22,737 nucleotides of DNA, from positions 1-22,737 of the IMG/VR virus record IMGVR_UViG_3300031999_000207, one strand, 5' to 3'. This DNA is from a virus. Under the pieces are notes generated by a model. The model did no database searches and had not been told where the DNA came from. It was given only the letters and a program-made list of their open reading frames with translations. Shown here one piece after another: positions 1,238 to 21,298 of this stretch; within the stretch, counting starts at the first letter, position 1, and each line of letters begins with the position of its first letter. The translations under genes and the position numbers were made by a program.

Positions 1238-4170
1238 CAGCTTACGCACTCCAACACCGCCTCGATGGTTTTGAGGCGTTTCGCCATTCTACTCGCCACC
1301 TTGTCCGCTTTTTGCATCACGATTGCGGTGCCGGTATCTGTTTCGTGCTCCATCGACAGGACGATCGTATCGAGAGCCTTTGTCGCAGGCTGCGCCTTCA
1401 GATACTCGATCATCCCCTGCAGTTGGTCCTGGGAGAGATCGTCGAGATGCTCCTTGCCCGTGACTCGCTTGGTGAGCGCCATGAATTCGGGGTTATTGTC
1501 CCACGGGATGCCCTTCGACTCGGCGAGTTTGTGGATATCCTCGACAGCAAGCGGCTTGGACGCTTTCGTTGCGCCGACACTTTCCGCTGCCGCTTTGCGC
1601 TGCTCTGCCGTCGCCAGTTGGCTTTGCGGCATCAGCGCATTGATCGCCGTTTCGATCTTGGCCCGGTGAGTCTGGTTATCCGCCGTCTGCGGCAGCAGCG
1701 CAGCGTTGGCTTGATCGATCGCCGCCGCCCACGCCTCGTCATGGCTCGCAAACGGGCCAATCTGATGATTGTTGAACGCCTCGACCGCACGATTGCCCTT
1801 CCCCTTGGAAGGCGTCATCACCAGCGTGCCAAACCACTGACCGTCGACCTGATGCGCGCCGACACGGACCATGTTGCCGCCGTAGCTCATCGCCTCCGGC
1901 GCCACAGTCTCGGGTTGACTCGATTCCTGACGGGTTACATTTTTGCCCGTCGTATCGTCGCCGAGAGCTTGCGCAATGGCGCGTTCCGGCGAAAAGCCGG
2001 CGCGCAACATGCTGGTGATCTCAATGACCTGGCCGTCGCCTTCCCGCTGAATAACAGCGTCGCCACTTGGGCGCACAATTAATCTGACCGTCTCTTGGGC
2101 CGGGCCTTCGCCGCCGATAGCGTCGGAAATCGTATACTTGCCGCTGGACGCACCGTGGTTGACTGGCGCAATCGCGCCCGGCGCCTGCAGCGCGAGCGGA
2201 ACGATCGTCTCACCCTTGCCGGTGAACTCGGCCGCGGGGAATACCATCGTCTCGCCTTCGAGCCCCGTCTTGATGCCGAGATACTTCTCGCCAGTCCCAG
2301 GCTTGAGGTACGCAATGGTGATGTGCGGCTTGTAGTCAGGGAACGTCTGGGTGTTCGGCAGGGCGTCGAGCTTCTTGTTCAGTCGCACGAGATCGGGTGA
2401 ATCGACACGCTGCACCAGAACATCGGCCTCTGGTGTCTTGAATACCTCCAACGCGCCGCCTGTTACGGCGACGTGCCCCTCGTCAGCAATGACCTTCGCA
2501 ACGTCGTCGGGGTTCTCTGTGTGCAGCCCGTGACGAATCGTGATGTGCGGGCGTTTCTCTATGCCCTGGTCGGCCAAGTCCTCCGGCGCGATGTGCTGCG
2601 CCACCGCCTGAATCGCCCCGGCGCGAACTGGATCGATCGCAACCTGAGCGCCGGAATACTCGTGCGCCTGCTCGCCCGCGGCGATATTGATTCCATAGCC
2701 TTGCGCCAGCGCCATCGGATTGCCAATGTTCTGACGTATGTGCAGCCTTTCAGCCTTCTCCGCATCGGTCAGAATCTCCGGCTCGATCGCCGGAATCGTG
2801 ACCGCATTGCCCTCCGCATCGGTCGACTCAACGGCTGGATGGCCCGCCGCCTTCCGGTTGATCGCGTGCAGTCGCGCCTGGGCCTGCGAAACGACTTCGG
2901 TCGTCGACATGGTGGGACCGCCAACGAACGGCTCACCCGGTATCTTCGCCCCAGTAACCGCCTCGCCAATGCTCGGGTCGATCCTCTGGAGTTTATCGGC
3001 CTGCATCGCCTTCAACGCGGCAGCAACCGCAGCTTCCGTGGTCGGCGCGGCTGCAATCTCGTCTATTTCCGGCTTGTTGATGAATGCCGCTATTGCACCC
3101 GGCACACCGAACACCGCGCCCATGCCGGTCTGCTCGCCAACTCCTTCGAGGACGTTCTTGTTGGGATCGACCTGGGCCGTGGCGACGTTCGCTACCAGCG
3201 CGCCGCCCGGTCCTTCCTGAATACCTTGCTGTAGCGATTCGCCCACTAGGGCGATGCCAGCCCGCTTGGCGCGCGAGCCTACCGCCTTGCTACCAACGCC
3301 ACCCAACGCTCGCTCTATCTCGGTCGAACCTGGGATGAATGTCGTGGCTACCGCAATGAGCGCAGCCGCCGCGAACGACTTTCTGGACAGGGAGAGAACC
3401 TCGTCGTTCTTCGCCTTCTGGTAGAACGCATCTCGATCCGCTTCTGATGCGCCGGGATGCGCAGTGGCGTAACTCGCCATTGCATCCTCTATCTCTGGCT
3501 TCTTCTTCCATACCTCGTCTGGGATCGCGCGCAACTGCTGTTGAGTTTGTTGCGCGGCATCGCCGCCCTGGAGCGCAGCTTCAGTCGCCACACCACCAGC
3601 AACCGCGCCTTTGGCAACAAACTTCTTCGCGGCAGCTTCCTCGAGCAAGCGGCGCGCGGCAATCTTTTCGGCGACCATTGCAGTAGCCCGCGCAGTCGGC
3701 CCGATCACGGCGAACTGCGGCACTTGCTGAAGGGCGAAGCTCGCCATGAGAGTCGGGCTTTTCAGCGTCTCCCACACCGCAATGCCAGCGCGCTGCACCT
3801 CAGACCCCAGATCCTCACCCTTAACAGCCGCCATCTTGTCGGCACGCTGTTTCTCAAGCGCCTTCTGGTCCTCTGGGAGTTGCTTCTGCAGCTCCTCGAT
3901 GCCAGCGGTCGCCCCAGTCGTGAGGTCGTTGTCTATGTTGCCGCTGACAAGCCCCCCTGTGACACCGGCCAGTTGCGCCAGTTGCGCACCGCCAATACCA
4001 AGGTTCGTCAGGATAAAACCGGGCTTGTAATCGACCGAAATGGGTTCGCGCTGCGGATTCGGGTCGAGCGAATTTCCCCGCGCCTCGGGTGCAGTGCCGA
4101 ACTGACTCCAGTCAGGGAGCTCGGGTTCGGTGCCGAACTGACTCCAATCGGGAAGGACAGCCTCAGCCAT
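1237..4170 (-). CDS. Giant putative ejection protein with embedded 2H phosphoesterase domain
   Basis: This 977-residue protein is the largest in the window. N-terminus: two copies of LPDWSQFGT (residues 6-14 and 18-26). Then a region of several hydrophobic or glycine-rich segments (about 51-76, 138-160, 264-281 and 350-364), compatible with membrane insertion, separated by charged helices. Residues ~503-660 match a 2H phosphoesterase: H542-I-T544 (KRPHITIRHGLH) and H616-I-T618 (DYKPHITIAYLKPG), 74 residues apart, with an HEYSGAQV start and a DVLVQRVDSPDL strand-helix between. The final part contains a GQWFGTLVM beta segment and a helical C-terminal module (GIPWDNNPEF ... DDLSQDQLQGMIEYL). The likely role is delivery into the cell with phage DNA; the 2H domain would cut 2'-5' or 3'-5' phosphodiester bonds. 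Both roles are inferred. The stop overlaps the next start as TGATG. Confidence 0.75.
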   Translation of the reverse strand: MAEAVLPDWSQFGTEPELPDWSQFGTAPEARGNSLDPNPQREPISVDYKPGFILTNLGIGGAQLAQLAGVTGGLVSGNIDNDLTTGATAGIEELQKQLPEDQKALEKQRADKMAAVKGEDLGSEVQRAGIAVWETLKSPTLMASFALQQVPQFAVIGPTARATAMVAEKIAARRLLEEAAAKKFVAKGAVAGGVATEAALQGGDAAQQTQQQLRAIPDEVWKKKPEIEDAMASYATAHPGASEADRDAFYQKAKNDEVLSLSRKSFAAAALIAVATTFIPGSTEIERALGGVGSKAVGSRAKRAGIALVGESLQQGIQEGPGGALVANVATAQVDPNKNVLEGVGEQTGMGAVFGVPGAIAAFINKPEIDEIAAAPTTEAAVAAALKAMQADKLQRIDPSIGEAVTGAKIPGEPFVGGPTMSTTEVVSQAQARLHAINRKAAGHPAVESTDAEGNAVTIPAIEPEILTDAEKAERLHIRQNIGNPMALAQGYGINIAAGEQAHEYSGAQVAIDPVRAGAIQAVAQHIAPEDLADQGIEKRPHITIRHGLHTENPDDVAKVIADEGHVAVTGGALEVFKTPEADVLVQRVDSPDLVRLNKKLDALPNTQTFPDYKPHITIAYLKPGTGEKYLGIKTGLEGETMVFPAAEFTGKGETIVPLALQAPGAIAPVNHGASSGKYTISDAIGGEGPAQETVRLIVRPSGDAVIQREGDGQVIEITSMLRAGFSPERAIAQALGDDTTGKNVTRQESSQPETVAPEAMSYGGNMVRVGAHQVDGQWFGTLVMTPSKGKGNRAVEAFNNHQIGPFASHDEAWAAAIDQANAALLPQTADNQTHRAKIETAINALMPQSQLATAEQRKAAAESVGATKASKPLAVEDIHKLAESKGIPWDNNPEFMALTKRVTGKEHLDDLSQDQLQGMIEYLKAQPATKALDTIVLSMEHETDTGTAIVMQKADKVASRMAKRLKTIEAVLECVS
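2191..2664 (-). other. 2H phosphoesterase (LigT / Acb1-like) domain inside the giant protein
   Basis: The two HxT motifs that define the 2H superfamily are both intact (codons at 2539-2547 and 2317-2325), each preceded by Pro and followed by a hydrophobic residue, the usual arrangement. The segment between, with a DDVAKVIADEG helix, a VLVQRVDSPDL strand-helix and LNKKLDALPNTQTFPDY before the second motif, resembles phage 2H domains. Known 2H enzymes include RNA ligase-like LigT, cyclic phosphodiesterases, and the phage Acb1 proteins that destroy CBASS cyclic-nucleotide signals. The substrate here is not known. Confidence 0.8.
4094..4146 (-). repeat. Two 36-base-spaced repeats encoding LPDWSQFGT at the N-terminus of the giant protein
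   Basis: gtgccgaactgactcca occurs at 4094-4110 and 4130-4146, spaced by 36 bases. Each copy encodes most of the LPDWSQFGT peptide, which stands near the extreme N-terminus before a proline/Asn-rich linker. Confidence 0.85.
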
Positions 4171-4171
4171 G

Positions 4172-4981
4172 CTATTTCACCGCAGGACCTCCATTTTTGA
4201 TAATCACTCTGCCGTCCTTTGGATTGATGAATGGTGTTCCATTCGGCAAAGCGGCGAACTCAACATCGTTCTTCGGCGTCGCCGGATTACCAACGCTGTA
4301 CGGCTTGTCCGGTGTCGCGGGGGACGGCGGCAATGTTGCCGCCGTGTCCGGTCCTTGCGCGGCGCGCAACGCCTCGACCGATATCAGATTGATCGCCCCG
4401 GTTTCGTTGTTCTGCTGAACGATCGTATCATCACCCTCCATGCCGGTTGAGATCTTCAAGGAGTAACCTTTGTTCGATTCATGGCGAAGCAGATTGATGT
4501 TGTCGATCGCCTTCTGCTTATCTTCAGGCGAGGCTTTCGGGTCAATCGCAATCGCTATGTTATCCCTGATCTGCTTCTGATCGTCGATACTCATCTGGGA
4601 TATCTCGCGCTGCATCTTGTTCGTCGCAGCAGCATCAGCATCGCGCGTCGCCGATCGCTCCGCTTCTGTTTTGGCAATATCCAGCCGCTTACCTTCTGAT
4701 TGCTCCACGCGACCTTCGTGCTCCGCTTGAGCCTTGTCGCGCGCCGCTCGGGCGTCAGAATCTTCTTTGTGGTACTGCGAAGCCTGCTCGCGCGTCGCCT
4801 TGTTCTCTCCAGCCGTGAAGTCTCGGCTCGCCTTGGCTTCGGCACCCTGGAATGCCTGCGACGATTCCTGCAGCCGTTGTTGGCGCAACATCGCGAGTTC
4901 CGACTTTTGCGCTTCCAGTGCGACGGGGACCGCCACATCTGCTGCGCCCTTCAGAATCCCAGCGATGATTCCCGTGCTCAC
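4172..4981 (-). CDS. Coiled-coil virion-cassette protein
   Basis: A GTG start overlapping the upstream stop (GTGA) opens a 269-residue protein. After a short hydrophobic helix (GIIAGILKGAADVAVPVAL, about 4-22) there is a very long charged coiled coil (about 25-150) rich in Ala, Arg, Glu, Gln and Lys. The C-terminal third is Pro/Asn-rich and ends with a small strand-rich segment (PNGTPFINPKDGRVIIKNGG). This composition is usual in podophage internal core proteins that form a transperiplasmic channel (like T7 gp15 or P22 gp20 by analogy, not similarity). A two-base-range gap separates it from the giant protein. Function otherwise unknown. Confidence 0.6.
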   Translation of the reverse strand: MSTGIIAGILKGAADVAVPVALEAQKSELAMLRQQRLQESSQAFQGAEAKASRDFTAGENKATREQASQYHKEDSDARAARDKAQAEHEGRVEQSEGKRLDIAKTEAERSATRDADAAATNKMQREISQMSIDDQKQIRDNIAIAIDPKASPEDKQKAIDNINLLRHESNKGYSLKISTGMEGDDTIVQQNNETGAINLISVEALRAAQGPDTAATLPPSPATPDKPYSVGNPATPKNDVEFAALPNGTPFINPKDGRVIIKNGGPAVK

Positions 4982-5580
4982 GCGGCTACTCCTGACGGCG
5001 CAGCTTCAGGCGGAACCGGAGCGCCGCCCTCTTTGCCAGCCTGTAGTTGCTGATCACTCATTTGCTGCTTCTGCTCGTCAGAATACTTCGCCGAGAGCGC
5101 CTGCAGTTCTTCCTCGTTCACGCCGTACAGCTCCGCAACCTGCGGGATGAATATCTGCCCAGCCGACTGCATGACCGCGTCGGATACTTTGAAAAATCCA
5201 GCCTTCTGCGCGAGCTCGGCGACAAGCTGCGCAATTTCCGCAGCGGCCGGCAACACGACCGGCGCCGGGATCGAGTCTTTTGACGCATCTTTGAGCTTTT
5301 GAATAACCAGCATCACCGCACTAGCAATCGCCCGTGCGGGTGTGTTTTTCGCGCCCTGAAGAAGCTCCATGATCGACTGATGGGTTTTTTCGTCGTAGAG
5401 CATCTTGGCGCCAGCCATCACAACCTGATCGTATGCCTGCTGCTCCTCGGGAGTCGCCTGTTCCTCGTCCTGGGCCATGTCTGGATTTTGCCCTTTGCCC
5501 TGGTCGGCGGCTTCGTCTGGCACCTGACCCGCAGCCTGATCCGTCGCGGCATCAGCGTTCATCACGTCGGTGATTTTCAT
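4978..5580 (-). CDS. Virion-cassette protein, function unknown
   Basis: The 200-residue product starts with an acidic, Gln/Asp-rich disordered segment (about 1-45) and then becomes a helical domain of around 110 residues (YDQVVMAGAKMLYDEKTHQS, then ARAIASAVMLVIQKL and EIAQLVAELAQKAGFF). The C-terminus is Gln/Lys-rich, then Pro/Ala-rich. I do not recognise the family. It overlaps both neighbours by four bases (ATGA at 5577-5580 and GTGA at 4978-4981), so it is coupled to the membrane-interacting and coiled-coil proteins and probably belongs to the same complex. No cysteine and no catalytic motif are visible. Confidence 0.65.
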   Translation of the reverse strand: MKITDVMNADAATDQAAGQVPDEAADQGKGQNPDMAQDEEQATPEEQQAYDQVVMAGAKMLYDEKTHQSIMELLQGAKNTPARAIASAVMLVIQKLKDASKDSIPAPVVLPAAAEIAQLVAELAQKAGFFKVSDAVMQSAGQIFIPQVAELYGVNEEELQALSAKYSDEQKQQMSDQQLQAGKEGGAPVPPEAAPSGVAA

Positions 5581-6404
5581 ACCACAGCACCCTTATCGAG
5601 CCGACTGGCAATCAATCCGCGCATTCCTGTATCTCCAGCGGCCACCGCCATTGCAGCCGGGTTCGTTGGGCTAACGCGCGGAGTCCCAACGGTCGGATTC
5701 TCTACCTGCGAAAGACCGGAACCGCCGTAGTTAGACAGCGGATTCCCGGCTGTATCGGTGATACCCCGATCTAGCGGAGCGATACCAAGATCGAGGCCGC
5801 CAACCTGCGTGTTCTTATTGGCCTCTTGGCGCTCGTCTTTCCGCGCTTGCTGCGCAGCGGCAGCTTGATATCCGCCTGACACGGCGGACATTCCCAATGC
5901 CATTGGCACCGGGTTCGCCATCGCCGTCGCAACCAGACCGTTGATCGTTCCCATGATCCCGGCAGCCGTCGAGGTGCCGACTGCCGTTGGCACCGAGGCC
6001 ATTGCGGTGTTGAGCGCGGCTGTCTCCGCGGCGGTTAACATGCTACCGCCTGTTGCCGCCGCTGTAGTACCCACCGCGCCAGCGGCAGTGCCAGCGGCAG
6101 TGCCAGCGGCAGTGCCAGCGGCAGTGCCAGCGGCAGCAGTGCCGGCAGCGGTGCCAGCGGCAGCGGTGCCAGCGGCAGCGGTGCCAGCGGCAGCGGTAGT
6201 GCCAGCGGCGGCAGTGCCCGCGGCAGCGGTGCCAGCCGTTGTCGCAGTCGTCGCACCTCCCAACAGCGCCGTGCCAGCGCCCCAGGTGAAGTAGATGACG
6301 ATCGCAGCGAGGATGACCTTGCCAATCGTCGAGGAGAAAACCGACTTGAACGCCTTACCGATACCGCTGACGACCGACTTGATACCTTTCACTATCTTGG
6401 ACAT
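5577..6404 (-). CDS. Membrane-interacting virion protein with Ala-Gly-Thr repeats
   Basis: The 275-residue product has a basic amphipathic N-terminus (residues 1-24, MSKIVKGIKSVVSGIGKAF) followed by a hydrophobic segment suitable for one membrane span (about 27-49, VILAAIVIYFTWGAGTALL). Next comes a long low-complexity AGTA/AAGTA region (about 55-110), a helical region and a C-terminus rich in Gly, Pro and Asn. The absence of a signal peptide and the position in the putative ejection cassette suggest a protein carried in the head or tail that inserts into the host membrane during DNA entry. The repeats are encoded by 12- and 15-base units (6077-6234). The stop overlaps the next start (ATGA). 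Confidence 0.6.
   Translation of the reverse strand: MSKIVKGIKSVVSGIGKAFKSVFSSTIGKVILAAIVIYFTWGAGTALLGGATTATTAGTAAAGTAAAGTTAAAGTAAAGTAAAGTAAGTAAAGTAAGTAAGTAAGTAAGAVGTTAAATGGSMLTAAETAALNTAMASVPTAVGTSTAAGIMGTINGLVATAMANPVPMALGMSAVSGGYQAAAAQQARKDERQEANKNTQVGGLDLGIAPLDRGITDTAGNPLSNYGGSGLSQVENPTVGTPRVSPTNPAAMAVAAGDTGMRGLIASRLDKGAVV
6077..6234 (-). repeat. Minisatellite of 12- and 15-base units encoding Ala-Gly-Thr repeats
   Basis: About a dozen near-identical units of gccagcggcagt or gccagcggcagcggt follow each other without interruption, all multiples of three bases. They encode the AGTA/AAGTA stretch of the 275-residue protein. The near-perfect nucleotide identity indicates active expansion or contraction. 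Confidence 0.9.
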
Positions 6405-6406
6405 GA

Positions 6407-6877
6407 CTATCTGATCTCCATGAACACTGGCAACTCCTCGCGGAGGCCCATGCGTGCCAGTAGCTTACCGATACGCGGATCGGCGCGCACTTCGAGCGTG
6501 AACACGATGCTTTTGATTGCCGACCGCCCGCGCGCCCACTTGAGGAACGCACGAATCAGCGGCGCCCCGACTCCAGGCATCCGCGTGTAGAACTGGACAA
6601 CGCTCGCCTGCTTGCCTTCGTAGAATAGGCAGTCGTGAATCAGCGCAGACACCGCGGCGACTACCTGACCGTCGACCTCCGCCACACAACAGAAGTTGCC
6701 GGAGCCGGAAATCACGTCACGCGCAACCGCGCGGACTCGATCAACCGAAATCTTCATGCGCGGGTATGGGTCCGCCCGCATTGCCTCGATCCCAAGATTG
6801 GCAACCGCCGTAATGTCGTCAGGTCGAGCGCGTCGCAAAATGACTTCACCGGGTTCGTATGCGTGCGCTTCAGACAT
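6407..6877 (-). CDS. GNAT-family N-acetyltransferase
   Basis: The 156-residue protein has the order of a GNAT fold: an N-terminal VILRRARPDDITAVANL strand-helix pair (residues 12-28), a CCVAEVDGQVVAAVSAL beta hairpin (63-79), the acetyl-CoA-binding motif R99-M-P-G102-V-G104 fitting R-x-x-G-x-G/A at the end of strand 4 (YTRMPGVGAPLIRAFLKWA), and a final strand-helix LARMGLREELPVFMEI. GNATs transfer an acetyl group from acetyl-CoA to an amine of a small molecule or protein. The substrate is not evident. It is encoded in the middle of putative ejection-protein genes, with gaps of three and two bases on its sides, so it may act in the virion, on virion proteins, or in the infected cell. Confidence 0.85.
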   Translation of the reverse strand: MSEAHAYEPGEVILRRARPDDITAVANLGIEAMRADPYPRMKISVDRVRAVARDVISGSGNFCCVAEVDGQVVAAVSALIHDCLFYEGKQASVVQFYTRMPGVGAPLIRAFLKWARGRSAIKSIVFTLEVRADPRIGKLLARMGLREELPVFMEIR

Positions 6878-6880
6878 TTA

Positions 6881-7939
6881 CTAGCTGACCTTCGGCACTA
6901 TGAGCGGCAATGGTGGTGCCGTTGGCGCGCCTGTGTTGGTGAACGTGAGCAGATTTCCAAAATCCACGTTGTTCGCATTGCCAATGGTCTGCAGTCCATT
7001 CTGGAGCAGATCGATTTCTTGACTGATGATCTGCTGCTTGCTCGACATGCTGAGCTTCGGCGCCGCCAGGATTGCGCTGATTGAGGAGCTCGTCTGTGCG
7101 TACATATTCGCAGCGGATTGCGTCGAGGTAATCAACGCCTGATAGTTTCCCTTCAGCGTCTCGAGCTTGATGTCGAGCTCCCCGTCCAGCTTCTTGAGCT
7201 CCGTTTGATTCGACAGCTCGATCTCGCCAGCGAGCTTGGCCGCCGCCTGTGCTTGGTCTGCGTTTTGGGCCGAAAGAGTCGACTCTTGCGCACCCTTGAG
7301 TTCTTGGAGCTCTTTGTCGATGACGGCAGCGCGCGCCTGCAGATCGACCTTGCTGGCGGCGTCCGCCGTCTGTAGTGCCGTCTCGATCTCCCCGCGCTCT
7401 TGCTGCAGTCTCGATTGGATAATGCCTTGGCCTTCCTGCAAGCCAGCCTGGATTTTCCCCTGACTCTCCTGCAAGCCAGCCTGGATTTTCCCCTGACTCT
7501 CCTGCAAGCCGGCCTGGACCTCACCCTGTCTCGTGATCGCCTGTTGTTGCTGCGCCCCGGTCGCCCCCAGCGCAGAGGCCGCGTTCGCCGCTTGTGCGTT
7601 CGAGCTTTTGACACCCTGCATCGCAGCGGCATCAGAGGTTGCGATTGGCAATGCCGAATCGATTACCGCCTTTTGCCCAGCGCCAACCGCCATCGACGAA
7701 TTGACGAGCCCGCGCGAAGCCATCTGCTCATTCGCGCGCGTCGCCGCGGATTGCTGAAGCGCGGAATTCTTGTCGATGATCGAATTCAGCCGGCCCTCTA
7801 CGGTGTCGGTGTTCTGGTCGAGAGATATCCGCTCGGGGTCGTAAGTAACCGACTCGGGCGACTTTCCAGACGGAACGCCCGGCATCTCCCCCGCGGGACT
7901 GGGGGCGGCATCCATTTTCGCGGCTACGAGCCCGGCCAT
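6881..7939 (-). CDS. Probable internal (ejection) virion protein with tandem Gln-rich repeats
   Basis: The 352-residue product is rich in Ala, Gln, Ser and Glu and is mostly long helix. It begins with a proline-rich extended segment, has a central array of 11-residue units of the form IQAGLQESQGK (three copies, 33-base DNA period at 7434-7532), and continues as a charged coiled coil (DLQARAAVIDKELQELKG; ELKKLDGELDIKLETL). The C-terminal part (SSISAILAAPKLSMSSKQQI) is amphipathic. Internal proteins that are injected with DNA in podophages often have this composition, and it lies first in a run of such genes. AAAGGAGA precedes the ATG. No enzymatic motif is visible. Confidence 0.65.
   Translation of the reverse strand: MAGLVAAKMDAAPSPAGEMPGVPSGKSPESVTYDPERISLDQNTDTVEGRLNSIIDKNSALQQSAATRANEQMASRGLVNSSMAVGAGQKAVIDSALPIATSDAAAMQGVKSSNAQAANAASALGATGAQQQQAITRQGEVQAGLQESQGKIQAGLQESQGKIQAGLQEGQGIIQSRLQQERGEIETALQTADAASKVDLQARAAVIDKELQELKGAQESTLSAQNADQAQAAAKLAGEIELSNQTELKKLDGELDIKLETLKGNYQALITSTQSAANMYAQTSSSISAILAAPKLSMSSKQQIISQEIDLLQNGLQTIGNANNVDFGNLLTFTNTGAPTAPPLPLIVPKVS
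7434..7532 (-). repeat. Three tandem 33-base repeats
   Basis: Units at 7434-7466 and 7467-7499 are identical over the 33 bases; a third unit, 7500-7532, is diverged. They encode the 11-residue IQAGLQESQGK-type units of the 352-residue protein. Two identical neighbouring units suggest recent slippage or recombination, which preserves frame. Confidence 0.9.
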
Positions 7940-15043: not shown

Positions 15044-16087
15044 TTAGCCCAGATCCGCTACGCCGACTTCGGCTACCGCCATCCAGCCATCGTTCTGAAC
15101 GAACGAAGCCGACCAGAAAATCGCGCCGATGTACCCACGTTGGCCCAACGGGTCCGCCTTGTCCTTTTGCGAGGCGGGCTGATGGATCACGTCGAAGGAG
15201 TTCATCCCGCGCAGAGCAACGTCGCCCCAGGCATCGTCACCAACGACGATCATGGGATACACGTCGAGCAGCGAGCCGCCCGTCGAGAACAACCCGGTCG
15301 TGCCGATCGCGGCCCCGGCGTTGATGACCGAGGACAGTTCCGGCGAGACGATGAAGCGATACCGATCCGCCGAACCGAGTTCGAGCTCGTGAACCGCACG
15401 GCGCGAGCCGTATGCAGCCACTTCCTTGAAGCCGGGAAGGTTTCTGATGTCGTTTTCGCAGTCTGTGTGACAGAACACCAGAAACCCGGCTTCTACCGGA
15501 GCGGTGTTGTAGTTCGCAGACGGAGCCAGAATCGAAGTGATGAGGTCAGCCCGGTTGCCCATCAGCGAGCGGGTGATCTTGCGCAACAGGTTCAACGACA
15601 CCGAGGCGGCGACCGTCGCGCGAGTGGTGCCACCCGCGTAGAACTTGTTGGTACAACCTTTCAACGCGCCGTAGCGGATCAACTCGCGAACGAGCCCCAT
15701 CCGTTGCCCGGTCTGCTTCTTCATCGCGTCGGGTACGTCGTCCTCGTACAGGTCAGCGGCTTTGTCGCTGTACTGGTAGAGGCACGAGTATTGGTTCAGT
15801 TGAACCGTGATGTCCTGCGGCACGATCGTGTCGGCTGCAGGCGTGACACCTTCTTGGGTCAGGTGCGTATTCGGGTCAGCGGTCCATCTGTTGATGGTCG
15901 TCGCGCTGGTGATGGCGCCGCCAAACGGCAACCAACGTCGGTACACCACGGTGTCCGACATATTCTTTCCGATCTTGTGCTGATTCCCGGTGATACCGAG
16001 AACTTCGCGGGGGATTGCGTGCGCGAGGATTTCGCCTTTCAGGCGTCCAATTCGCGGTGCTGCTGTTGCATAGCCTTGTTGCGGCAT
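15044..16087 (-). CDS. Major capsid protein, N4-gp56 family
   Basis: The 347-residue protein matches the N4-gp56 family of HK97-fold coats in length and in motifs along its whole length: RIGRLKGEILAHAIPREVL (residues 12-30), the YRRWLPFGG segment (49-57), GLVRELIRYGALKGCTNKFY (131-150), and the strongly characteristic AYGSRRAVHELELGSADRYR (225-244) followed by FIVSPEL. It forms the icosahedral shell together with the scaffold encoded upstream. Translation starts at the ATG at 16087, with CGGAGA upstream. It is preceded by the longest gap in the window, with the stem-loop leader. This suggests that capsid expression is separately tuned, as expected for the most abundant virion protein. Confidence 0.93.
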   Translation of the reverse strand: MPQQGYATAAPRIGRLKGEILAHAIPREVLGITGNQHKIGKNMSDTVVYRRWLPFGGAITSATTINRWTADPNTHLTQEGVTPAADTIVPQDITVQLNQYSCLYQYSDKAADLYEDDVPDAMKKQTGQRMGLVRELIRYGALKGCTNKFYAGGTTRATVAASVSLNLLRKITRSLMGNRADLITSILAPSANYNTAPVEAGFLVFCHTDCENDIRNLPGFKEVAAYGSRRAVHELELGSADRYRFIVSPELSSVINAGAAIGTTGLFSTGGSLLDVYPMIVVGDDAWGDVALRGMNSFDVIHQPASQKDKADPLGQRGYIGAIFWSASFVQNDGWMAVAEVGVADLG

Positions 16088-17026: not shown

Positions 17027-17259
17027 GATGCGTCCCCTCTCAAAATATATGTTTCCCGTTTCTCACCTACGGGCACCGGATCGATCTGCCGCAACAGCGT
17101 CTTGAGCTCCGCAATCTGCCCACGCAGATACCCAGTCTCAACCTCGCCCAGCTTTGGCGTATCGTTCTGAACCCGCAAAACACCCAACCGATACTGGCAG
17201 TATTCCTTCAGCGCAGCGCGCCCAACCGCCTCGAAATCACTCCCCGTCAATGGCTTCAT
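17023..17259 (-). CDS. Small protein between portal and scaffold, function unknown
   Basis: This 78-residue protein has an N-terminal helical half and a heptad-like GYLRGQIAELKTLLRQI segment (about residues 43-59) that could form a short coiled coil. I do not recognise the family. It overlaps the portal stop (ATGA) and its own stop overlaps the scaffold start (GTGA), so it is tightly coupled to prohead genes. This location suggests a prohead assembly or portal accessory role, which is inference from position only. Small proteins of about this size are often found just after phage portals. Confidence 0.75.
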   Translation of the reverse strand: MKPLTGSDFEAVGRAALKEYCQYRLGVLRVQNDTPKLGEVETGYLRGQIAELKTLLRQIDPVPVGEKRETYILRGDAS

Positions 17260-19661
17260 TTCTCGAACGACTCCCCGTTAGGCGCGCGCCCCTTTGGCTC
17301 AGTCGGCGGCGCAAGCGCCTGACCACCGGCATTCATTCGCTCCAACTCCATCTGCGCCTTCAGCTTCATCACGACCTCAACCAGCTTCACTTTCCGGTTC
17401 TTGTCGCCCTCGCTCGCCGCAGCCTGCAGTTTCGCAAGATCCGTCACCTGACCGCCCTCGGTCTTGCGCACGTCATTTTGCTGATCGAGCGCCTTCGTCG
17501 CGATCTCCATCTCGTGCGCGCGATCCTGCGCCCGCACCTCGAGCGCCTTGTTCGCAATCTCCATCTCGTGCGCCTTGTTCTCCGCCGTCACGTCCAGCGA
17601 CTTCATGGCGATCTCCATCTGCCGATCGGCATCCGCGTCCTTGGCCTCTTGCTCAAGACGCATCTTGTCGATCTCGACACGGAGCTGCGCAATCTGCAGC
17701 GAACTGTCAGCCGGTGGCGCAGACATCTGCTCGACTACCTTCTGCCATTCCTCATCGTCGTACTCGAACCGCTCCGGCGCCAACCGCTGCGCCTTCAGGA
17801 ACTCTTGCGCCCACTTCTTCGGGTCAATCCCAAAGACCGGATTCACCACGATGTTCGCCATCTGCAGGATCGCTTGGTTGTTCAGGTCGCGGTCGACCAG
17901 GGCAGTGCTGCCTCGAGCATCGATCTGGAAATCACCCTTCTCGTCGTCGCTCTCGCCGTACTGCAGCAGATAGGCGTAATACCGCCGAACGTGCGGCTCA
18001 GTGATAAGGTCGTCAAACAACCGCGCAACACGCCGCATCGGACTCGACGCGTTCTCGTTCAGGATCTTCATGCCCCCAACAGTGTCCGGCGCCGAACCCT
18101 GCGAGCCCTGCATCAACATCGGCATACCCGTCACATCCTCAGCCATCTTCAGGCCGAACTGGATGATTGCCTGCAACTCCTTCTGCATCATCGGAATCTC
18201 GATGAACGTGAACGCCTTCGTCACATCCTCGATCGTCGCCTCATCCGTCACCGTCCAGCCCTTTCGAGGAGCAAGCTCCGGCTTGCCATCCATCGGCACG
18301 ATAATCCCGCCCATGTAGACGAACATCGGCCCGCCCGCAAGACCGGCGTTGTCCATCATGTTCCGCCCACCACCATTCACCACCCGCTGCGGCGTCCGCA
18401 TCTGCCGCGGCACACCAATCCCCCAAGGCGTGCCAACCCGGCGCTGCCACACCATGAAGTCATACGGGAACTCCCCGGTATCCAACAAATTCAACGACGC
18501 CTTGATGACGTGGTTGTTCACCAGCGTCAGCACCGCGTCATAGTCGAACTTCTCCTCGTGCCCTTCGTCGAACTCGCAGCCGGCCGACTCTAAATCCTCG
18601 TGCTTCACCCGACCGTGAAAGTACCAAATCTCGAACATGGTCGTGGTTTCACGCTTGACCAACCCCATCAGGTGCTCGTCACCGTCGAACTCCTTCGTCG
18701 CCCGGTGCGGACCCTCAGCAATCACTCGGTCAATCTCGTCGTCCAGATAGTCACCACCCTTCAGCGCGGCCAACCGCTTCGAGGTAATGTCGTCACGCTC
18801 CCAGAAAAACCCCCCGTCATGGATCGATTGCCCACACGCCGGGTCAGGAAAACAGTTCCAGTAATCCACCCGCCGCGACGAGGGGATCGTCGTCGACTGC
18901 ATGATCAACTTGCCTTCGACGTAGGCAAACGTCTGCTTGCGCATCGGCACCGGACCCTTGAGCACCCCAGTGCCCCCGCGACAGGTGTCCTCGATCACTT
19001 GCCGCATCTCCGCCTGATACTGGCTCTCTACATGCCAGTCCTCAATCCGCGTCTGCGCGCGATTGGCCCGATCGGTCGCGATCTTAAATCGCTCCTTCTC
19101 GGTCTTAATCAGATCGGCCTTCGTTTCCTCAACCTTCGTGGCGCGCGTCTCCGCGTCAAACTTGTCCCACCGAATGTCCTTCTCGATCGCCCTGATCAAC
19201 CGCGCCGGGATCTTTCCCTCAGCAATCTCAGCCATATCCGGCACCGGCGTAGGCCGAATCGACCATGCCCGGTCGTCCGTAGGCAACAGCATGTCGCCCA
19301 TCCGCGCCGACGCCGAATCAGTGTACGGGCGCGTGATGTTGAAAAACGCCGTCGATCCGTTCTGCTGAACCCGCGTCGTAGGATCAATCGCCGTAAACGG
19401 CTTGCCACGCCAACCCGCGTGCTCATGCCGGTTCGCGTCGTCTATCCCCTCGTAATGCTCCTCGTCCTGCAGCCATTCCATCTCAATGCCGCACTGCGCC
19501 CGCCCGGCAATCGCCTCAGATCGGGTCTTGATGATCCGCAGCGCGAGGTTCTGCAATATCTGGTTGCGCTCCTCAGCCTTGGCCGACTCCTCTGGGTTCT
19601 CCTCAGACTCATCCTCTGAATCCATGTTCATCACACCACGGAATTTTGCTGCTTCACTCAT
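17256..19661 (-). CDS. Portal protein, P22-type, with C-terminal coiled coil
   Basis: The 801-residue product is similar in length to P22-type portals (P22 gp1 is 725) and follows TerL directly. Portal-like features include an acidic N-terminus, an FNITRPYTDSASARMGDML segment around residues 108-126 typical of the family, a WNCFPDPACG segment in the wing region, a VVNGGGRNMMDN stretch and a VTGMPMLMQGSQG stretch in the crown/stem part. The last ~150 residues form a long charged helix containing three 18-residue repeats (core MEIA-K-L; DNA period 54 bases, 17503-17620). The dodecamer would be the DNA channel and the docking site for terminase and adaptor. The stop overlaps the next start as ATGA. 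A second in-frame ATG eleven codons in is possible, but the TGATG junction favours the first. Confidence 0.9.
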   Translation of the reverse strand: MSEAAKFRGVMNMDSEDESEENPEESAKAEERNQILQNLALRIIKTRSEAIAGRAQCGIEMEWLQDEEHYEGIDDANRHEHAGWRGKPFTAIDPTTRVQQNGSTAFFNITRPYTDSASARMGDMLLPTDDRAWSIRPTPVPDMAEIAEGKIPARLIRAIEKDIRWDKFDAETRATKVEETKADLIKTEKERFKIATDRANRAQTRIEDWHVESQYQAEMRQVIEDTCRGGTGVLKGPVPMRKQTFAYVEGKLIMQSTTIPSSRRVDYWNCFPDPACGQSIHDGGFFWERDDITSKRLAALKGGDYLDDEIDRVIAEGPHRATKEFDGDEHLMGLVKRETTTMFEIWYFHGRVKHEDLESAGCEFDEGHEEKFDYDAVLTLVNNHVIKASLNLLDTGEFPYDFMVWQRRVGTPWGIGVPRQMRTPQRVVNGGGRNMMDNAGLAGGPMFVYMGGIIVPMDGKPELAPRKGWTVTDEATIEDVTKAFTFIEIPMMQKELQAIIQFGLKMAEDVTGMPMLMQGSQGSAPDTVGGMKILNENASSPMRRVARLFDDLITEPHVRRYYAYLLQYGESDDEKGDFQIDARGSTALVDRDLNNQAILQMANIVVNPVFGIDPKKWAQEFLKAQRLAPERFEYDDEEWQKVVEQMSAPPADSSLQIAQLRVEIDKMRLEQEAKDADADRQMEIAMKSLDVTAENKAHEMEIANKALEVRAQDRAHEMEIATKALDQQNDVRKTEGGQVTDLAKLQAAASEGDKNRKVKLVEVVMKLKAQMELERMNAGGQALAPPTEPKGRAPNGESFEK
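17503..17620 (-). repeat. Three 54-base repeats encoding 18-residue helix units in the portal C-terminus
   Basis: The 17-mer atctccatctcgtgcgc occurs at 17503-17519 and 17557-17573, and its first ten bases recur at 17611-17620, an exact spacing of 54 bases. In protein each unit reads (A/Q)-(H/-)-EMEIA-K-(A/S)-L followed by a charged stretch. The repeats keep the frame and extend the predicted coiled coil. Confidence 0.85.
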
Positions 19662-21298
19662 CAGTAGCCTATGCCTCTATCGGTAAGCCTTCTGGTAACG
19701 GCCATCGGGCGATTCTGCAATCGCGGAAATACGATCTTCATGTCAGGGTCGCAGATCCGCGAAAGCACATCCAACAAGTCATCGAACGGACCCACCGGAA
19801 ATGGCAAATACTCCATCTCGATGAACTGCTTCACCATGTCAACCGTCTGCCCAGACCACAGCGTTCGATGCGCCGTCTCTGGAATCCATATTCGATGCTG
19901 CTCCAACAGCGGAATCAACCGCCGAATGCGGTCGTTCTTCGACATCCGCCCGCCCAGCTCGGTAATTTTGAACCGATAGCTGGACCTCTCCATCTTGTCA
20001 TTCAGGTGCGCAATGTCGGAATCCTTACCGTACCGCTCATACCCCACCCCCAACGGCCGGTATTGCCGGTGCCACTCAAACAGCAAGTCGGCCCGCTCCG
20101 TCAGGTTCAACCGATCGCGCACGAAATCGACCATGTAGTAGTTCATGTCGTCGCAAACTTCGATCACCGCCATCGCGGTGTTGTCGCGCTTCTGCGACGC
20201 CGGAACTCCTTGCTTCTTCTCCCCGGCAGGGTCACACAAAATGTACCGATTGCCCGCCCGCGGCGGAATCCTGAAGTGACATAGCCACTCCCGGCGCAAC
20301 TCACCACCACCCTTCGGCGACGGCCGCTGCTGCAACTGACCCGCAGCGCCATAACTGCCCAGGTCGATCTCGAGATTGCGCACCGCACCCTCTGGGAACA
20401 GCGCCGGAAACAACAACTCACCCTCAACGTGCCGCGGATCGTTCAAATCGGGTCGGCCAATGTCCGCCCCCGCATCAAACGTGTTCCCCGCCTCGTACCG
20501 CATCGGTATACGCAACAACTTCCAGTTCTGGCCCTCCTTCGCCAACAGATGCCCAGTCATGTCAGTCAGGTGGATACGCTGCATGACCAGAATTCGTGCC
20601 GATTTCTCCAGATTGTTCACCCGCGAGGACCACGCAACGTCCCACTTCATCGTGACAGCCTTACGCTGGATGTCCGACTCGGCCTGTTGCGTGTCGTGCG
20701 GGTCGTCCCAGATCACCGTATCGCCACGCTTCCCCGTGACCTTACCCGACACGCCGATCGCCTCGCGAAAGCCGCCCTGGGTGTTCTTGAAGTGGTGTTT
20801 TTCACTCTGCCCGCGATCAATCGTGACCAGATCGCTCGCAACCCCCTCGTCACTGACCTTCAGCGCCCACTTGGACTGATACCAGTGCGACTCCACAAGG
20901 TCACGCATCTTCATCGAGTCACGAATCGCCAACGATGCGTCGTTCGATGCCGTCAGAAAACGGTGCGATGGCTGATGAATCCAGCGCCACGCCGGATAAA
21001 TCACACCCACCAACAGAGACTTCATCGTGCCAGGAGGAATGTTGACGATCAGCCGGATGATCCGACCGTCCGCAACCGCCTCCAGATAGCCGCAAATCGT
21101 GTCGAGGTGCCAGTTCCACGTCAACGGCGTCCCCGGCTCAAGAATGTGCCAAGCGTCTTTCGTGAACTCAGCCAACGAAGCAGCACACGCGAGCTTCCGC
21201 TCAGTGCCGTCCGTCTCAGTGAGTAGTGCGGACGCCTCCGCTGGCGTCAACCGGCTTATCCAATCCAGCGATCGCGCGGAACTTGTCTCTGATTTCAT
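19661..21298 (-). CDS. terL: Terminase large subunit (packaging ATPase and nuclease)
   Basis: The 545-residue protein has both halves expected of TerL. The ATPase part shows a Walker A-like VNIPPGTMKS (residues 85-94), a Walker B TVIWDD (194-199) and the family motif VMQRIHLTDMTG (238-249). The C-terminal RNase H-like nuclease part begins near YILCDPA (Asp356) and ends with PFDDLLDVL (Asp506, Asp507, Asp510), giving the acidic residues that bind the metal ions. It pumps DNA into the prohead through the portal and cuts the concatemer. The ATG at 21298 lies inside terS, but GGAAG precedes it at a suitable distance, and the next in-frame ATG would lose the Walker A region. The stop overlaps the portal start as TGATG. 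Confidence 0.95.
   Translation of the reverse strand: MKSETSSARSLDWISRLTPAEASALLTETDGTERKLACAASLAEFTKDAWHILEPGTPLTWNWHLDTICGYLEAVADGRIIRLIVNIPPGTMKSLLVGVIYPAWRWIHQPSHRFLTASNDASLAIRDSMKMRDLVESHWYQSKWALKVSDEGVASDLVTIDRGQSEKHHFKNTQGGFREAIGVSGKVTGKRGDTVIWDDPHDTQQAESDIQRKAVTMKWDVAWSSRVNNLEKSARILVMQRIHLTDMTGHLLAKEGQNWKLLRIPMRYEAGNTFDAGADIGRPDLNDPRHVEGELLFPALFPEGAVRNLEIDLGSYGAAGQLQQRPSPKGGGELRREWLCHFRIPPRAGNRYILCDPAGEKKQGVPASQKRDNTAMAVIEVCDDMNYYMVDFVRDRLNLTERADLLFEWHRQYRPLGVGYERYGKDSDIAHLNDKMERSSYRFKITELGGRMSKNDRIRRLIPLLEQHRIWIPETAHRTLWSGQTVDMVKQFIEMEYLPFPVGPFDDLLDVLSRICDPDMKIVFPRLQNRPMAVTRRLTDRGIGY

Follow-up and report, generated by a model that had tools for sequence, protein, structure and literature searches.

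The 2H phosphoesterase Acb1 of phages T4 and FBB1 (PDB 7t26, 7t27) is a free-standing protein whose activity in T4 is seen about 15 min into infection, with a late onset of the cyclic-oligonucleotide-based antiphage signalling system (CBASS) (PMC9117128). Among anti-CBASS nucleases, the T4 enzyme has been studied best. 2H domains also occur in polyvalent proteins and as fusions to MuF or portal proteins; for such injected proteins, Iyer et al. 2017 (PMC5512222) proposed an RNase activity, named first, or the destruction of defence nucleotides, and linked protein injection to the N-terminal region of the virion RNA polymerase (vRNAP). This region is the N-terminal domain gp50-NTD in the ejection model of phage N4, whose virion carries 4 ± 1 copies of gp50 (PMC12633501). 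In this work, we analyze a viral DNA stretch of 22,737 nucleotides (IMG/VR record IMGVR_UViG_3300031999_000207, a 22.7-kb fragment), referred to as the window, which encodes a 977-residue protein with an embedded 2H domain. We read it as an ejection protein of an N4-related podovirus that carries a counter-defence 2H enzyme, a reading to which we give even chances.

The general concept has been known since 2017, and the finding is not new in kind. As in the proteins described in the passages of Iyer et al. 2017 consulted here, the 2H domain lies in a large multidomain protein that is encoded with virion genes and proposed to be injected; the present protein differs from them in being short, in having an ejection region of the N4 vRNAP type, and in carrying no recognizable RNA polymerase (RNAP), MPTase, or LPD domain. 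What is new is the occurrence of a 2H domain in a short N4-type ejection protein that lacks a recognizable polymerase, its phage context, the residue-level comparison with Acb1, and a duplicated N-terminal motif found in 7 of 12 such proteins.

The 2H domain and its active site

The protein and its parts are listed below; G014 is a related viral contig, and Y3 stands for Pseudoalteromonas phage vB_PunP_Y3.

1237..4170, minus strand: 977-residue protein, probably a short ejected virion protein of the polyvalent type carrying the 2H domain, in the slot of the giants of G014 and Y3
4084..4164, minus strand: duplicated short N-terminal motif EAVLPDWSQFGTEPE / EPELPDWSQFGTAPE, residues 3–29 (shuffle test)
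2998..3894, minus strand: region resembling the N-terminal ejection region of N4-type vRNAP, residues 93–391 (hidden Markov model (HMM), PHROG 2206, tblastn)
2185..2658, minus strand: 2H phosphoesterase domain, residues ~505–662 (Pfam, PHROG 755, AlphaFold2, 2H matches in PDB)
2539..2547, minus strand: first HxT motif, H542-I-T544 (His invariant across 35 relatives)
2317..2343, minus strand: second HxT motif (H616, T618) inside FPDYKPHIT, residues 610–618 (motif scan and alignment)
1354..1896, minus strand: C-terminal region, residues 759–939, common to the LPD-type polyvalent giant of G014 (35.7% identity, E 2.6e-21)

Residues 505–662 are a 2H phosphoesterase domain. The initial annotation had placed it at positions 2191–2664, which do correspond to residues 503–660, and the two HIT motifs it reported (residues 542–544 and 616–618, 74 residues apart) are present in the open reading frame (ORF). 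When the protein is shuffled, 0.4% of the copies show a loose pair of H-x-[ST] motifs spaced as in 2H enzymes, and none of 20,000 shows a PHIT[ILV] pair. The 2H assignment is borne out by profile searches and structure prediction alike, and chance does not explain it. Pfam Acb1 (PF23474) is passed with 35.7 bits against a cut-off of 27 (E 8.9e-9) over residues 562–621, a partial match covering profile positions 51–110 of 144, and PHROG 755, annotated as "RNA ligase", matches the domain at E 3.2e-13. Pfam 2_5_RNA_ligase2 reaches 26.0 bits (E 1.1e-5), just under its cut-off of 27, while genome-based scoring gives 31.6 bits; LigT_PEase (PF02834) is not passed by the protein (14.4 of 23.3 bits) and gave no match in the genome search. 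AlphaFold2, run on a 35-sequence alignment, confidently predicts a two-lobed 2H fold (predicted local distance difference test score (pLDDT) 91.8, predicted template modelling score (pTM) 0.85). The solved structures matching this model are 2H enzymes, with Z of about 10–16, and in BFVD the best match comes from a fragment of a large protein of phage origin (template modelling (TM) score 0.83). On the strength of the fold match to 2H enzymes, the two catalytic histidines are predicted to face one pocket.

The active site is well kept among relatives. Both histidines are invariant in the 35 alignment rows, down to about 20% identity, while the threonine of each motif is present in 34 of 35 rows, with serine in the remaining one; outside the Acb1 clade, all 30 relatives (17–42% identity) retain both HxT/S motifs. 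FPDYKPH is likewise invariant in the 35-row alignment, although its invariance and that of the second histidine are partly due to selection, since most rows were collected with the FPDYKPH pattern. Judged from these residues, catalysis by the domain is plausible, and the domain is probably an active enzyme.

Probable ejection context of the protein

Residues 93–391 score 32 bits (E 2e-9) against an HMM built from five vRNAP N-termini of Schitoviridae, the best score on 400 shuffled copies being 3.4 bits. PHROG 2206 (virion RNAP) matches at E 4e-6 and is confined to residues 116–389 of the protein, and tblastn supports the resemblance at E 3e-5. Pfam and PHROG scans of the protein gave no hit to an RNAP domain of the T7 type, and Pfam gave no LPD hit; the protein has one effector domain. 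A search of viral contigs with the N-terminal 499 residues found no close relatives. The protein shares with N4 gp50 and its cassette (PMC12633501) the N-terminal region and the place of the last and largest cassette protein, whereas it differs in having a 2H domain, in lacking an RNAP domain hit, and in its length (977 versus about 3,500 residues).

The remaining genes of interest in the window are as follows; functions of the cassette proteins of 269, 200, and 275 residues are putative, and MW202426 is phage ctsTn925.

4172..4981, minus strand: 269-residue protein, candidate ejection-cassette protein; 1-base gap to the 977-residue gene, same slot in G014 and Y3
4978..5580, minus strand: 200-residue candidate cassette protein; G014 homologue in the same slot (E 9e-6), 4-base overlaps with its neighbours
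5577..6404, minus strand: 275-residue Ala/Gly-rich protein with a hydrophobic N-terminus, candidate channel protein; weak same-slot match in Y3 (E 0.003)
6407..6877, minus strand: GNAT acetyltransferase; PHROG 1249 (E 2.4e-10), Y3 counterpart in the same slot (E 1e-7)
6881..7939, minus strand: 352-residue cassette protein; G014 E 8e-16, Y3 E 2.6e-9
15044..16087, minus strand: major capsid protein of the N4 gp56 type; PHROG 1357 (E 2.8e-54), 56% identity to MW202426, 34% to Y3
17256..19661, minus strand: portal protein; 42% identity to MW202426, 29% to Y3
19661..21298, minus strand: terminase large subunit; PHROG 38 (E 2e-68)

The nearest capsid, portal, and tail genes are those of MW202426, G014 (capsid 47–49%, portal 30–34%), and Y3, a phage for which a new family derived from N4-like viruses, Poorviridae, has been proposed (PMC11654794). 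We assign the window to an N4-related podovirus of the vB_PunP_Y3/ctsTn925 lineage. Its cassette runs in the order 352 residues, GNAT, 275, 200, 269, and 977 residues. In G014, the homologue of the 352-residue protein is followed by proteins of 321, 214 (the homologue of the 200-residue protein), and 261 residues and by a giant of 2,868 residues; in Y3, it is followed by GNAT, proteins of 317, 216, and 318 residues, and a giant of 3,421 residues. From this synteny, the 977-residue gene occupies the slot of the ejection giant, which bears out the description of it as the last big gene of an ejection-like cassette. In two of the three related phages, the positional counterparts of the protein are polyvalent giants: that of G014 has LPD1 and LPD38 domains, and that of Y3 has ddrB-ParB, ART, methyltransferase, and LPD1/5 domains and was matched by its authors to the N4 virion RNAP hallmark (PMC11654794). 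MW202426 carries a 3,145-residue LPD protein elsewhere in its genome, before the terminase, with weak similarity at the N-terminus. As a separate observation, a GNAT gene lies just upstream of ejection-type proteins and a giant in three phage lineages (6407–6877 in the window; L054:21064–21516; L016:4938–5459).

At the C-terminus, residues 759–939 align with residues 734–904 of the 2,868-residue G014 giant; no relatives of the C-terminal 312 residues were found in phage records. The domain common to the window C-terminus is present twice in the G014 giant (locus L004), at residues 590–659 and 839–907. An AlphaFold2 model of residues 840–950 reached pLDDT 64 and was not used. Given where the matching region lies in the 2,868-residue giant, we also considered that the gene might be a giant truncated by a frameshift, but the ORFs that follow (98 and 245 residues, soon after which the contig ends) have no match to the G014 giant; gene shortening is therefore tentatively favoured over a recent break.

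The first 90 residues of the protein contain a duplicated short segment that none of 300 shuffles equalled and that is the best among all its 90-residue windows. Of the 12 giant or ejected proteins whose N-terminus is complete, 7 contain such a duplicate (the window protein, L004, L016, L024, L030, L032, and L039; absent from L019, L046, Y3, MW202426, and the Axy12 vRNAP), each with p ≤ 0.023 against shuffles (uncorrected for the several proteins) and each the best or second-best window in its protein; none was found in three shorter fusion proteins (L047, L018, and L020). The motif sequences vary by protein, several having cores of P/G and an aromatic residue (PDWSQFGT, GPWxDYA, PWEEA, GNPF), with copies such as LPDWSQFGTEPE twice, GPWxDYA twice, and PWEEA two or three times. 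In L032, the scoring picked a stretch rich in proline and alanine instead of the DPYAxIA pair spotted by eye. One might guess that the duplicated motif serves as a docking, packaging, or virion-loading signal.

Taken with the vRNAP-like N-terminus, the position at the cassette end, and the giant counterparts, this motif lends good indirect support to delivery with the DNA, which the initial annotation had proposed, and ejection of the protein is probable on these grounds. The membrane-like segments cited there proved weak, the best 19-residue Kyte-Doolittle mean (1.46) falling below the usual threshold of 1.6. That the ejected protein would also carry an active 2H enzyme appears rather probable to us. 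Action before any phage gene is expressed would follow only if the ejection is real.

Related domains in other phage proteins

A profile search of viral contigs for the domain gave 38 loci, several of them overlapping the first search. In about ten distinct records, the domain lies in ORFs of more than 1,000 residues, whose other domains include helicase, SNF2, RelA/SpoT, LPD, and methyltransferase; the remaining loci are some portal or MuF fusions and, for the rest, mostly free proteins of 150–205 residues. The closest relative, L016, has 3,216 residues; the cassette that precedes it includes GNAT besides an internal virion protein and a virion structural protein. Among one genome per bacterial or archaeal species, no relative of the domain was confirmed with single-sequence patterns, which reach close relatives only. 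The window terminase has no match in the records with 2H giants, and the window portal matches, among the records of that search, only G014, which has no 2H domain; the 2H giants therefore belong to other phage lineages.

The portal protein of Pam3 (PDB 8hds) resembles the window protein in having an Acb1-type domain in a virion protein, at its C-terminus (residues 468–611, E 7.6e-20), but it is a portal and not an ejected protein, and its domain is a true Acb1-clade match. An Acb1-type domain forms the portal C-terminus also in L014:502–2682 and L048:8342–10489. Single ORFs in L018:7296–11417 and L020:8696–12007 join a portal-like segment, DUF5661, and a 2H domain, and add either MuF with an intein-like segment or a topoisomerase IB domain. 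In L007:1061–2377 and L008:7959–9284, a single protein combines the 2H domain with a DnaQ-type (RNase_T) exonuclease. Apart from these fusions, the 862-residue terminase large subunit of L032:15453–18041 has its matched parts separated by a long insertion, possibly an intein, and weakly matches a PHROG to which the intein-bearing L018 protein is matched as well.

Possible substrate and meaning of the finding

With Acb1, the domain has in common the 2H fold, the HxT/HxT tetrad, the FPDYKPH motif, and a passing PF23474 score. A single-sequence search returned as the only solved 2H structures three Acb1 entries (9q2g, 6e-4; 7t26, 1e-3; 9q2y, 3e-3), and a profile-profile comparison of the domain clade with the Acb1 group gave E 1.4e-15 over 80 columns. 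In Acb1, the bases stack on Y12, W74, F107, and W147, and E141 contacts adenine (PMC9117128). A 14-row alignment places Y505, F577, F610, and F649 of the window protein in the four aromatic columns; in the 35-row alignment, F577 and F610 stay aligned, while the ends with Y505 and F649 do not align with the Acb1 rows, leaving those two placements uncertain. Base stacking by the aromatic residues of the domain is likely from these alignments.

Several results weigh against the reading of an ejected counter-defence enzyme. In the 14-row alignment, which is weak there, Val643 stands in the column of Glu141, a residue invariant in the five Acb1-type rows, so that an adenine contact of the Acb1 type is probably absent. 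In the maximum-likelihood tree, which was midpoint-rooted and built without LigT outgroup sequences, the Acb1-type rows form a clade (support 100/99, branch 2.05) outside which the domain is placed, its neighbour being L016 (support 93/95), among domains of large proteins. LigT/CPDase/Usb1 structures fit the domain at least as well as Acb1 does: the fold matches rank drCPDase (Z 15.7), TT0787 (15.5), Usb1 (14.8), LigT (14.7), and then Acb1 7t26 (12.8, spanning 134 of 137 residues), with the poxvirus cGAMP phosphodiesterase at 11.3. The vRNAP-like region is compositionally biased, and the need for delivery at entry is weakened by the timing of T4 Acb1 activity and the late onset of CBASS; this timing also makes it less than obvious that Acb1 is an early protein, as the initial annotation had called it. 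Finally, the nearest phage relatives (G014, W01, and W02) have no detectable 2H domain, and none was found via PHROG 755 in G014, MW202426, or Y3, which makes the domain an optional cargo that, of the phages compared, this one alone carries.

The same fold ranking feeds the strongest alternative, in which the ejected domain acts on RNA, as a Usb1-like RNase or as a LigT/CPDase-like opener of 2',3'-cyclic ends or 2'-5' links. LigT (2'-5' RNA ligase), CPDase, and Usb1 share the fold with the domain at Z ~14–16 over about 150 residues, at 8–18% identity, though the domain does not pass the LigT_PEase profile. An RNase role heads the proposals of Iyer et al. 2017. A clade profile without Acb1 rows finds archaeal LigT-like proteins (1.5e-5, 2.7e-5) nearly as well as Acb1 (1.2e-6). 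However, Z grows with length and Acb1 is the shorter structure, so length favours the drCPDase/TT0787/Usb1/LigT group; Acb1 is the sole solved 2H structure type in the single-sequence search; and no RNA ligase or kinase gene was found among the window proteins scanned. We regard action on RNA as a serious but minority possibility.

The structure, profile, and tree comparisons place the domain in a 2H clade of phages close to Acb1 rather than establish it as an Acb1. Besides its separate clade and the missing Glu141 equivalent, it differs from Acb1 in an extra C-terminal strand beyond the Acb1-aligned part and in being embedded rather than free-standing. Of the proposal of an anti-CBASS enzyme, the 2H domain and the match to the Acb1 model stand, while the position outside the Acb1 clade, the lack of the adenine-contacting glutamate, and the LigT/CPDase/Usb1 fold, at least as close as that of Acb1, speak against it. 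That the substrate is a signal nucleotide is, to our mind, about as likely as not; that it is a CBASS-type cyclic di- or trinucleotide in particular is a tentative idea. Acb1 reportedly provided, in 2022, a biochemical precedent for the destruction of defence nucleotides.

Under the favoured reading of a counter-defence ejection protein, the 977-residue protein would leave the capsid last, through a channel of the smaller cassette proteins, and would carry its central 2H domain, folded like a bead on a chain, into the cytoplasm. There, as in Acb1, the 2'-OH would attack and form a 2',3'-cyclic intermediate, so that the pair of HxT motifs cleaves a phosphodiester of a small nucleotide independently of metal. 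Counter-defence would be the likeliest purpose, with a cyclic or 2'-5' signal nucleotide removed from the start of infection. The more specific proposal that an N4-type ejection protein has had its polymerase replaced by a virion-carried Acb1-like signal nuclease, which would disarm cyclic-nucleotide defence ahead of any phage gene being read, along a route common to a widespread 2H clade in giant ejected proteins, is somewhat speculative.

Alternatively, the protein might be a late one that is not ejected but remains inside infected cells or functions in assembly, its 2H domain acting late like free Acb1. This would suit the activity of T4 Acb1 at about 15 min, but the N4 vRNAP-like N-terminus, the cassette position, the giant counterparts, and the N-terminal motif common to other giants argue against it, and we consider it improbable. 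Still less probable is that the 2H domain rides along without catalytic activity, or that its role lies in structure or binding. Inactive domains are indeed found in virion proteins of phages (the Mu gp30 PBECR is reported inactive; PMC5512222), but the HxT/S motifs are kept in all 30 relatives outside the Acb1 clade.

With its size of about 160 residues, the domain lends itself to expression on its own. This makes the question of its substrate, which dates back to the polyvalent prediction of 2017, directly testable, and the clade alignment supplies many further candidates. If the counter-defence reading is true, a virion-borne version of such an enzyme would clear the alarm signal from time zero, with few catalytic copies sufficing.

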